This document shows positions 39,017 to 41,174 of a DNA stretch of 64,000 bases, piece by piece. The stretch lies in assembly GCF_006970865.1 (NCBI RefSeq), contig NZ_CP035503.1:2493001-2557000 (forward strand), in the 5' to 3' direction. The notes under the pieces are model-generated. The model searched no databases and was not told the DNA's origin. It saw nothing but the letters and a program-made list of their open reading frames with translations. Position 1 is the first letter of the stretch; every line of letters begins with the position of its first letter. The DNA is from Rhodoferax sediminis. GTDB lineage: Bacteria; Pseudomonadota; Gammaproteobacteria; Burkholderiales; Burkholderiaceae_C. The position numbers and the translations under genes were made by a program.

Positions 39017-40924
39017 TCAACGCTTGTTGGCAATGTCACCGGCGATGAGTTGCGCGAACGCATCGAGGGACATCACGCCGAGGTCAGCATTGCCCCGGGC
39101 GCGCACTGCGACGGCACCTGCTGCCTTCTCCTTGTCACCCACGACCAGGATGTAGGGCAGCTTTTGCATCGAATGCTCCCGTATTTTATACGCAATTTTC
39201 TCGTTGCGCAGATCCAGCTCGACCCTAAGCCCTTGATTTTTCAGCGCTTTGACCACGTCCCGGGCATATTCGGCCTGCGCATCGGTGATATTGAGCACAG
39301 AAACCTGCACCGGCGCGAGCCAGGTGGGCAGCGCGCCGGCGTGTTCTTCGATCAGGATACCGATGAAGCGCTCCAGACTGCCGACGATGGCCCGGTGCAG
39401 CATGACGGGCCGGTGCCGCGCGCCGTCCTCGCCCACGTACTCGGCGTCCAGCCGCTCGGGCATCGAGAAATCGACCTGCATGGTGCCGCACTGCCACTGG
39501 CGGCCAATCGCGTCTTTCAGCGTGTATTCGATCTTCGGGCCGTAGAAGGCGCCCTCGCCCGGAGAAATCTCGAAGTCGCAGCCCGAGGCACGCAGGCACT
39601 CGATCAGCGCGTGCTCGGCCTTGTCCCACACTTCGTCGGAGCCGATGCGCTGTTCGGGTCGCGTTGCCACCTTGTAGATGATGTTCTTGAAGCCGAAGTC
39701 CGCGTAGACCTTCTGCAAGAGCGTGGTGTAGGCGACGCACTCGGACAGGATCTGGTCTTCGGTGCAGAAGATGTGGCCGTCGTCCTGCGTGAAACCGCGC
39801 ACGCGCATGATGCCGTGCAGGCCGCCCGAGGGCTCGTTGCGGTGGCACTGGCCGAATTCGCCATAGCGCAGCGGCAGGTCCCGGTAGCTCTTGATGCCCT
39901 GCTTGAAGATCAGGATATGGCCCGGGCAGTTCATCGGCTTGAGCGCATATTCGCGCTTTTCCGACTCGGTCGTGAACATGTTCTCGCGGTACTTGTCCCA
40001 GTGCCCGGTTTTTTCCCACAGGCTCTTGTCGAGCAGCTGCGGGCCCTTGACTTCCTGGTAGCCGTTGTCCTGGTAGACGCGGCGCATGTACTGCTCGACC
40101 CCCTGCCATATCGTCCAGCCCTTGGGGTGCCAGAACACCAGGCCCGGCGCATGGTCGTCCACATGGAACAGGTCGAGTTCGCGGCCCAGCTTGCGATGGT
40201 CGCGCTTTTCGGCCTCCTCCAGCATCGTGAGGTACTGCTGCAGTTCGTCCTTGGTGGCCCAGGCCGTGCCGTAGATGCGCTGCAGCATCTCGTTGCGGTG
40301 ATCCCCGCGCCAGTAGGCGCCGGCCACCTTCATGAGCTTGAAAAACTTGAGCTTGCCGGTGCTCGGCACGTGCGGGCCGCGGCACAGATCCTCGAAGCTG
40401 CCTTCTCGGTACAGCGAGACGTCCTCGCCGGCCGGAATGCTGGCGATGATCTCGGCCTTGTAGTGCTCGCCAATGCCCTTGAAGTACGCGACCGCCTCGT
40501 CGCGCGGCAGCACGCGGCGCGTCACGGGCTCGTCCCTGGCGGCGAGCTGCGCCATGCGCTTTTCGATCGCTGCCAGATCGTCGAGCGTGAACGGGCGCTT
40601 GTACGAGAAGTCGTAGAAAAAGCCGTTCTCGATCACCGGGCCGATGGTGACCTGCGCCTCGGGAAACAGCTCTTTGACCGCATAGGCCAGCAAGTGGGCG
40701 GTCGAGTGGCGGATCACCTCCAGGCCGTCGGCATCCTTGGCCGTGATGATGGACAGCGCAGAGTCCTTGTCCAGGCGGTAGCTGGTATCCACCACCTTGC
40801 CATCGACCTTGCCGGCCAGCGCGGCCTTGGCCAGCCCGGCGCCGATCGATGCCGCCACGTCGGCCACCGTCACCGGGCCGGAAAAGTCGCGTTGGGAGCC
40901 GTCGGGGAGCGTGATCTGAATCAT
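39017..40924 (-). CDS. thrS: Threonyl-tRNA synthetase
   Basis: This 635-residue enzyme has all domains: TGS (1-62), editing domain with HSTAHLLA (H73, H77) and a later HxxxC-type site, class II catalytic core with the zinc-binding Cys in MNCPGH and motif 2 region [15 protein letters not shown], and a C-terminal anticodon-binding domain. It charges tRNA-Thr and clears serine. The ATG at 40,924 has no good ribosome site. The region just upstream holds a terminator hairpin and a Thr-rich leader peptide, so expression is probably controlled by threonyl-tRNA supply. It heads the thrS-infC-rpmI-rplT-pheS-pheT-ihfA group. Confidence 0.97.
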
Positions 40925-40939
40925 GATGTTTGAACTTGT

Positions 40940-40971
40940 AAAAAAATAAAGCGCGGTCCATGCCGCGCTTT
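40940..40971 (-). terminator. Terminator hairpin in the thrS leader (attenuator)
   Basis: On the minus strand AAAGCGCGG / CCGCGCTTT form a 9-bp perfect stem with a CATGGA loop, followed by ATTTTTTT. It ends only 15 bases before the thrS ATG and lies after the Thr-rich leader peptide, so it would stop thrS transcription unless prevented. A CCGCGC segment right after the leader stop (41,005-41,010) is complementary to the GCGCGG of its left arm, giving an antiterminator. Confidence 0.85.
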
Positions 40972-41011
40972 ACTACGAATTTTATAGCTGAATGCGCCCA
41001 AGGCGCGCGGA

Positions 41012-41062
41012 CTAGCGACCTTTTTGGCCTGTAAACCTCGTCGGTGTAGTTCGCGGTGTCAT
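41012..41062 (-). CDS. Threonine-rich leader peptide of thrS
   Basis: This 16-residue reading frame, MTPRTTPTRFTGQKGR, has five threonines (positions 2, 5, 6, 8 and 11). It starts at ATG 41,060-41,062 with GAGAAAGG upstream and stops with TAG 41,012-41,014. Its stop is about 40 bases before the left arm of the terminator upstream of thrS. A ribosome stalled at the Thr codons would leave CCGCGC (41,005-41,010) free to pair with the terminator's left arm; a ribosome that reaches the stop would cover it. Both observations match a classical attenuation leader. The peptide is too short to have a separate function. Confidence 0.8.
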   Translation of the reverse strand: MTPRTTPTRFTGQKGR

Positions 41063-41174
41063 AACCGGGTGCCTTTCTCGCTCTTGTGGGGTTGGCAGTT
41101 CGCCTGCTTATTCGGTTGCAATTTTAACCTGTTGTCAGGCAGGGGGCTGCGGACGGCTGTTAGTATCGCCCGCT

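Follow-up and report, generated by a model that had tools for sequence, protein, structure and literature searches.

The window, the whole stretch of 64,000 nucleotides of Rhodoferax sediminis DNA that was analysed, carries thrS on the (-) strand, followed on its 3' side by infC, rplT, pheS, pheT and ihfA, which were identified with NCBIfam models, and by rpmI, which was assigned by eye. The infC gene apparently starts at a non-AUG codon, ATC at 38909-38907 (-), 66 nt upstream of its first in-frame ATG. A short open reading frame preceded by its own ribosome-binding site lies between thrS and its divergent upstream neighbour, rlpA (Table 1). Thr codons occupy positions 2, 5, 6, 8 and 11 of this leader (ACA, ACT, ACA, ACG and ACA). 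The leader stop codon is separated by 40 nt from a perfect 9-bp terminator stem with the loop CATGGA, whose T-run lies 15 nt from the thrS ATG, and a CCGCGC segment at 41010-41005 is complementary to GCGCGG in the left arm of that stem. The frame with its five Thr codons, the ribosome-binding site, the stem, the seven U, both spacings and the complementary segments had all been listed in a preliminary description of this DNA, and each was recovered in place on the (-) strand.

Table 1. Features of the thrS leader region. Positions are those of the window.
Feature	Position	Strand	Details
Promoter -10-like TAAAAT	41121..41126	(-)	64 nt upstream of leader ATG; -35 poor (2/6)
Conserved block ACAAGAGCGAGAAAGGCA containing the leader ribosome-binding site	41070..41087	(-)	many columns at least 90% in alignment A1 (69 relatives)
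Leader ribosome-binding site GAGAAAGG	41072-41079	(-)	
Leader ORF MTPRTTPTRFTGQKGR, stop TAG	41012..41062	(-)	ATG 41062-41060, TAG 41014-41012; 16 codons
Region 1 CGCGAACTA, within the Thr codons	41047..41055	(-)	able to pair with region 2; duplex -12.8 kcal/mol, p 0.21
Region 2, stop codon and TCCGCGCGCC	41002..41014	(-)	able to pair with region 1 or region 3
Region 3, terminator left arm AAAGCGCGG	40963..40971	(-)	terminator scan and relatives
Region 4, terminator right arm CCGCGCTTT	40948..40956	(-)	terminator scan and relatives
Seven-U run	40940..40946	(-)	
thrS, threonine--tRNA ligase	39017..40924	(-)	TIGR00418, 730.8 bits (cut-off 383.65)

To assess how often such an arrangement arises in this DNA, we counted short frames (8-30 aa; ATG, GTG or TTG starts) on both strands of the 64 kb. 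There were 1,595, 103 of them Thr-rich, and only two Thr-rich frames had a terminator behind them: the thrS leader and the 3' end of aceA. The leader terminator was also picked up by a terminator scan. ACA and ACT supply four of the five Thr codons of the leader, compared to 10 of the 163 Thr codons across seven coding sequences of the window. Terminator-like sites were not in excess in the 1-kb stretch (1, against 1.0 in shuffles), and the leader RNA folded mildly better than shuffled sequences (z of -1.79 and -1.68; equalled by 9 and 12 of 200 shuffles). Taken by itself, the window gave a significant value neither for pairing of regions 2 and 3 (2:3, p 0.25) nor for pairing of regions 1 and 2 (1:2, p 0.21).

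We then compared the thrS loci of relatives. A first set was gathered from 30 genomes, mostly of the family of the window (f1, Comamonadaceae as judged from its named relatives), and from 80 contigs that include Acidovorax, Rhodoferax, Polaromonas, Hydrogenophaga, Limnohabitans, Delftia, Roseateles and Rubrivivax. Removal of L063 and L073, which had no upstream DNA, reduced it from 110 to 108 loci; the sequences are related, so that counts over this set are not independent. A frame starting ATGACACCGCG was present in 77 of the 108 loci, was 10-16 codons long in 71 of these 77, and was followed by a terminator detected with a mechanical finder in 75 of the 77. By eye, one of the two loci missed by the finder, L097, has a terminator and the other, L040, a degenerate one. 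The leader was altered yet recognisable in L007 (MTARTSRRGFTGQ) and L037. In the latter, a Polaromonas contig, the start codon has become ATA and the Thr codons have decayed, the appearance of a leader in the course of loss. The preliminary description had looked to close relatives for conservation of the Thr codons and the terminator. This held for the 77 loci that keep the leader; no recognisable leader was found in 29 of the 108, 17 of which retain a hairpin of the thrS-leader type. Six leaderless loci (L032, L042, L057, L059, L061 and L082) carry a GCGCGG/CCGCGC hairpin with a U-run just before thrS, located by eye about 25-28 nt after a TAAAAT, and in all of these except L032 a GCGTTT before the hairpin offers a possible partner for AAGCGC in the left arm.

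The leader behaves as a coding sequence. Downstream of codon 5, Thr accounted for 165 of 657 codons in frame, whereas the two alternative frames had 7 and 23 of 582 (75 loci). Codon 6 was Thr in 61 of the 75 loci and was spelled ACG (23), ACA (22), ACC (14) or ACT (2). Third positions thus vary while Thr is retained, the pattern expected from selection on Thr. Codons 2 and 3 were set by the search pattern and are uninformative on conservation. Codons 4 and 5 were nearly invariant even at their third positions (CGA 70 and CGG 5; ACT 71 and ACG 4, of 75), which hints at a constraint at the RNA level as well. We conclude that the 16-codon frame is a real, conserved coding frame, predicted to be translated.

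The preliminary description required transcription to begin upstream of the leader. Of the 76 leader loci with the DNA needed (it is missing from one of the 77), 52 have a TANAAT hexamer at 40-70 nt before the leader ATG, and in 39 of these the spacing is 47-53 nt; letter shuffles gave 1.0 and an interval farther upstream 0. The -10-like hexamer fits this expectation; the -35 is poor, and a consensus promoter scan of the window detected nothing upstream of the leader and missed the TAAAAT site too.

To find out how far the leader extends, we built a covariance model from 69 leaders (alignment A1). In the genome of the window the model scored the leader upstream of thrS at 121.8 bits, and the next distinct place at 13.2. 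In a draw of 300 genomes across the order, which we infer from the named loci to be GTDB Burkholderiales, the best 29 new loci all lay directly upstream of thrS and had a frame beginning M-T-P or M-R-P; two of these 29, L117 and L120, duplicate L002 and L030. Two broader counts were rejected as measures of distribution because both mix true and chance matches: the model matched 163 of the 300 genomes at E<=0.1, and a search of 100 of the 120 other-family loci described below gave 109 matches on both strands at E<=1. Leaders of family f8 (L129, L130 and L131), such as MTPRTTTWLWENR, contain one or two Trp codons too.

A scan independent of amino acid identity was applied to 120 thrS upstream regions of other families (L145-L264), hand-chosen among the matches listed. 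It called frames of 8-30 aa with at least three of one amino acid within five codons and a terminator behind, no more than 260 nt from thrS. Over 19 amino acids, Thr gave 39 matches, Val 18 and the rest at most 6; Thr gave 0 in shuffles (three per locus). The 18 Val matches are probably frames through a tRNA-Val gene, and two of the 39 Thr matches (L149 and L190) may be due to chance, as the listed frame exits a tRNA gene. Thr matches were found in 18 of the 38 further families; the 20 families without a Thr frame in this strict scan include f11, f18, f25, f26 and f36. The same scan of the first set returned Thr in 62 of 108 loci, followed by Glu with 13, and again 0 for Thr in shuffles. The Thr leader is therefore broader than the preliminary description supposed, reaching at least 18 of 38 further families. 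In family f5, a match at the start of thrS was found in 38 of 43 genomes, and all 27 loci examined (20 newly taken and 7 from the 120; the frame with most Thr shown for each) have a short frame with 3-6 Thr.

The leader peptides are diverse between families, as illustrated by MTPRTTTRLWGNR, MNTNTTRTTTTRHT, MFRTRTTTQSC, MSFRTTTTGSLNLA, MQLNRTTTTS and MPRTRTTTGVFSRRG. This diversity bears on the possibility that the conserved start MTPRT stalls the ribosome as a nascent peptide, in response for example to an antibiotic or a metabolite, or that another ligand is sensed. The near-invariance of codons 4 and 5 (CGA 70/75, ACT 71/75) and the occurrence of an M-T-P-R-T start in several families would fit such an arrest peptide. 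Other families, however, retain the Thr run alone (MQLNRTTTTS, MNTNTTRTTTTRHT and MSFRTTTTGSLNLA), the Thr enrichment extends past the fixed block, and RNA pairing of region 1 can account for the low variation, and we regard arrest as very unlikely.

We next asked whether the RNA pairings expected of an attenuator have left a trace in the alignments. Compensatory changes in the terminator stem, anticipated by the preliminary description, were seen at 3 of 11 predicted pairs of the A1 consensus; the covariation term was negligible (-0.22), so that this trace is weak. In other families, GTGCGG/CCGCAC replaces GCGCGG/CCGCGC. RNAalifold on A1 returned the terminator and a 4-bp hairpin at the start only, and thus supports neither 1:2 nor 2:3. 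In the family of the window, mean energies were -14.5 kcal/mol for 2:3 (shuffles -11.7) and -13.6 kcal/mol for 1:2 (shuffles -11.7). These pairings exceeded shuffles mainly as group means, each reaching p<=0.05 in 26 of 75 loci; a second computation gave 26 of 74 loci for 2:3 and 12 of 74 for 1:2. Covariation was slight, as the share of foreign partners binding better was 0.42 for 2:3 and 0.50 for 1:2.

Support for pairing was stronger in f5. Region 1 and the post-stop stretch averaged -17.1 kcal/mol, compared to -10.8 for shuffles and -14.3 for foreign partners. The leader ribosome-binding site and the post-stop stretch averaged -14.4, compared to -8.4 for shuffles and -9.0 for foreign partners, and only 9% of foreign partners bound better, which indicates covariation. 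With the later post-stop part only, the latter helix gave -11.9 (shuffles -6.8, foreign partners -6.9; 23% of foreign partners better). The f5 2:3 pairing reached -10.3 (shuffles -7.1), without covariation. The ribosome-site helix nests with 1:2 and with the terminator (3:4) and crosses 2:3, and should therefore favour termination when no ribosome is present. A comparable blocking of leader translation by distal RNA is known from the E. coli trp operon. The same helix, strong in f5, was rejected for the family of the window, where covariation gave it no support.

To model the effect of a ribosome, we folded the RNA up to the terminator loop with the ribosome footprint masked and read out the pairing probability between the terminator left arm and the post-stop stretch. 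In the first set (f1, 75 loci) the mean was 0.28 with no ribosome, 0.55 with a ribosome at codon 6 and 0.20 with a ribosome at the stop; in f5 (27 loci) it was 0.01, 0.54 and 0.04, respectively. The codon-6 value exceeded the value without a ribosome in 66 of 75 first-set loci and in all 27 f5 loci. Shuffling the post-stop stretch showed that masking itself also raises the value, to a lesser extent (0.38 to 0.47 in f1, 0.24 to 0.43 in f5). By codon, the first set gave 0.69 at codon 1, 0.55 at codon 6 and 0.32 at codon 11, and f5 gave 0.61 at codon 4, 0.54 at 6, 0.34 at 7 and 8, and 0.06 at 11. The antiterminator values peak at codons 1-3, away from the Thr run. In the first set, codons 2 (set by the search pattern), 5 and 6 were those most often Thr; in f5 these were codons 4, 6, 7 and 8. 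The Thr codons thus come before the position at which a ribosome that stalls would prevent the antiterminator, although they lie off the peak. Averaged over each family, these folds predict that the antiterminator gains when the ribosome is held on a Thr codon. The window alone gave 0.45 with no ribosome, 0.55 at codon 6 and 0.53 at the stop, and 0.26, 0.51 and 0.26 with other boundaries, so that the predicted shift in the window itself is small, boundary-dependent and weak. Stalling is predicted to favour an antiterminator on average in f1, more strongly so in f5, and weakly in the window.

Taken together, the conserved anatomy, the Thr coding, the complementarities and the switching predicted at the family level argue for a ribosome-mediated (leader-peptide) transcription attenuator through which the supply of charged tRNA-Thr would set the expression of thrS, a reading, already that of the preliminary description, to which we assign a probability of about 0.87. 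According to this model, transcription would begin some 50 nt before the leader, with a ribosome that translates the Thr-rich leader following RNA polymerase closely. When charged tRNA-Thr is scarce, the ribosome would stall at the early Thr codons (2, 5, 6 and 8) and cover region 1, leaving region 2 free to pair with region 3, and transcription would continue into thrS. When charged tRNA-Thr is ample, a ribosome reaching the stop codon would cover region 2 and the 3:4 terminator would form. Finally, if no ribosome initiates, 1:2 would form and transcription would end. Read-through may also affect the infC-rpmI-rplT-pheST-ihfA genes.

To place the leader in a broader context, 40 loci outside the order (L265-L304) were chosen from 132 genomes with a match. 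The amino-acid scan found a Thr-rich frame with a terminator in one of the 40, L299 (MSTTTAQR), which may be independent or due to chance; terminators were found in 18 of the 40. A tRNA-Val(GAC) gene lies upstream of thrS in 78 of the 120 loci of other families and in 29 of the 40 outgroup loci, compared to 0 of 108 in the first set.

These neighbours raise the possibility that the hairpin is an ordinary terminator of an upstream transcript, tRNA-Val being encoded directly upstream in many families, and that the frame before it is a meaningless product of chance. Besides the position of tRNA-Val in 78/120 order and 29/40 outgroup loci, the terminators of 18 outgroup loci and the hairpin that persists without a leader in 17 relatives are consistent with this explanation. 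However, a chance frame would not account for Thr coding that is frame-specific and accompanied by synonymous change, for Thr standing out among the amino acids tested, or for a leader length held at 10-16 codons in 71 of 77 loci. Moreover, rlpA is divergent in the window, where the -10-like site separates this gene from the leader. We therefore give this explanation a very low probability, on a par with that of the arrest peptide.

An anticodon-arm-like motif that appears to resemble the E. coli ThrS operator was detected with a loose pattern in 17 of the 40 outgroup loci but in none of the 120 and none of the 108 loci from the order; the pattern was composed after viewing outgroup sequences, which makes this group difference descriptive. 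A strict operator pattern found nothing in any of the three sets (40, 120 and 108), and the hits of a stem-based search (1 of 40, 3 of 120 and 1 of 108) do not separate the groups. These counts bear on a further alternative, namely that ThrS binds its own leader RNA and represses translation, the mode known for E. coli thrS (passages of PMC11088916). Set against it is the motif found in 17/40 outgroup loci and in 0/120 and 0/108 loci of the order, through one post hoc pattern where two other searches gave no separation, and we consider autoregulation of this kind the least probable of the three alternatives.

Returning to the attenuator, in a simple history an arrangement with tRNA-Val followed by thrS would be ancestral, and the order would have lost the operator and turned the intergenic stretch into an attenuator. 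In a joint reading, to which we give even odds, the whole order (betaproteobacteria, GTDB Burkholderiales) swapped an ancestral ThrS-binding operator for a Thr-codon attenuator between tRNA-Val and thrS; some families gained a covarying clamp between the leader ribosome-binding site and the post-stop RNA; the family of the window (Comamonadaceae) lost tRNA-Val at this position and has a dedicated promoter; and the control of thrS came to respond to charged tRNA in place of the enzyme.

Repression of its own mRNA through tRNA mimicry has made ThrS of E. coli a textbook case, and the Thr leader attenuator likely marks a changed control logic for thrS. If the switch works as proposed, a large neighbouring lineage controls thrS by charged tRNA and not by the enzyme, and the locus would be a natural case of regulatory replacement at one conserved gene. 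The leader could also provide a ready-made threonine-starvation reporter for betaproteobacteria.

The leader is a candidate RNA family, with no Rfam 15 match in the loci searched. T-box riboswitches also control synthetase genes by tRNA charging, by binding tRNA directly and with no leader frame; neither T-box nor Thr_leader matched at the gathering score in the window or in 20 loci. The sole Rfam match at E<=5, L20_leader, was rejected (14.5 bits, cut-off 58.7). According to passages of a 2013 paper (PMC3766115), Rfam at that time contained amino acid attenuators for His, Leu, Thr and Trp, most of them located upstream of biosynthesis genes, and passages of PMC5688073 report 82 short 5'UTRs in Burkholderia cenocepacia, some of them before tRNA synthetases. 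In titles, abstracts and passages, our literature search returned no description of a thrS leader peptide in this lineage; a survey of attenuation of amino acid and aminoacyl-tRNA operons (Lopatovskaya 2010), known to us by title, could hold an earlier prediction. The kind of element is already known, and we found no description of the thrS example in the parts of the literature that the search covered.

The pheST and thr attenuators of E. coli combine a leader peptide with alternative 1:2, 2:3 and 3:4 pairings; pheST likewise encodes a synthetase, and the thr leader senses Thr codons. Both share the leader-peptide layout with the thrS leader but differ in their target genes. As described in passages of PMC8632094, the closest system is the uORFC-8-2 motif upstream of cysS in Rhodobacterales, in which a leader with cognate codons and a terminator precede a synthetase gene and ribosome-mediated attenuation is proposed; it concerns Cys and cysS in alphaproteobacteria, whereas the thrS leader concerns Thr in another lineage, and the two are likened by description. 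The E. coli thrS operator (passages of PMC11088916) has the same target gene and likewise feeds back on ThrS, but there the protein recognises the RNA and acts at the level of translation; a resembling motif was not found in the loci of the order with the loose pattern. Finally, the E. coli thr leader contains eight ACC codons (passages of PMC1183508), whereas the thrS leader in the window spells Thr mostly with the rare codons ACA and ACT.
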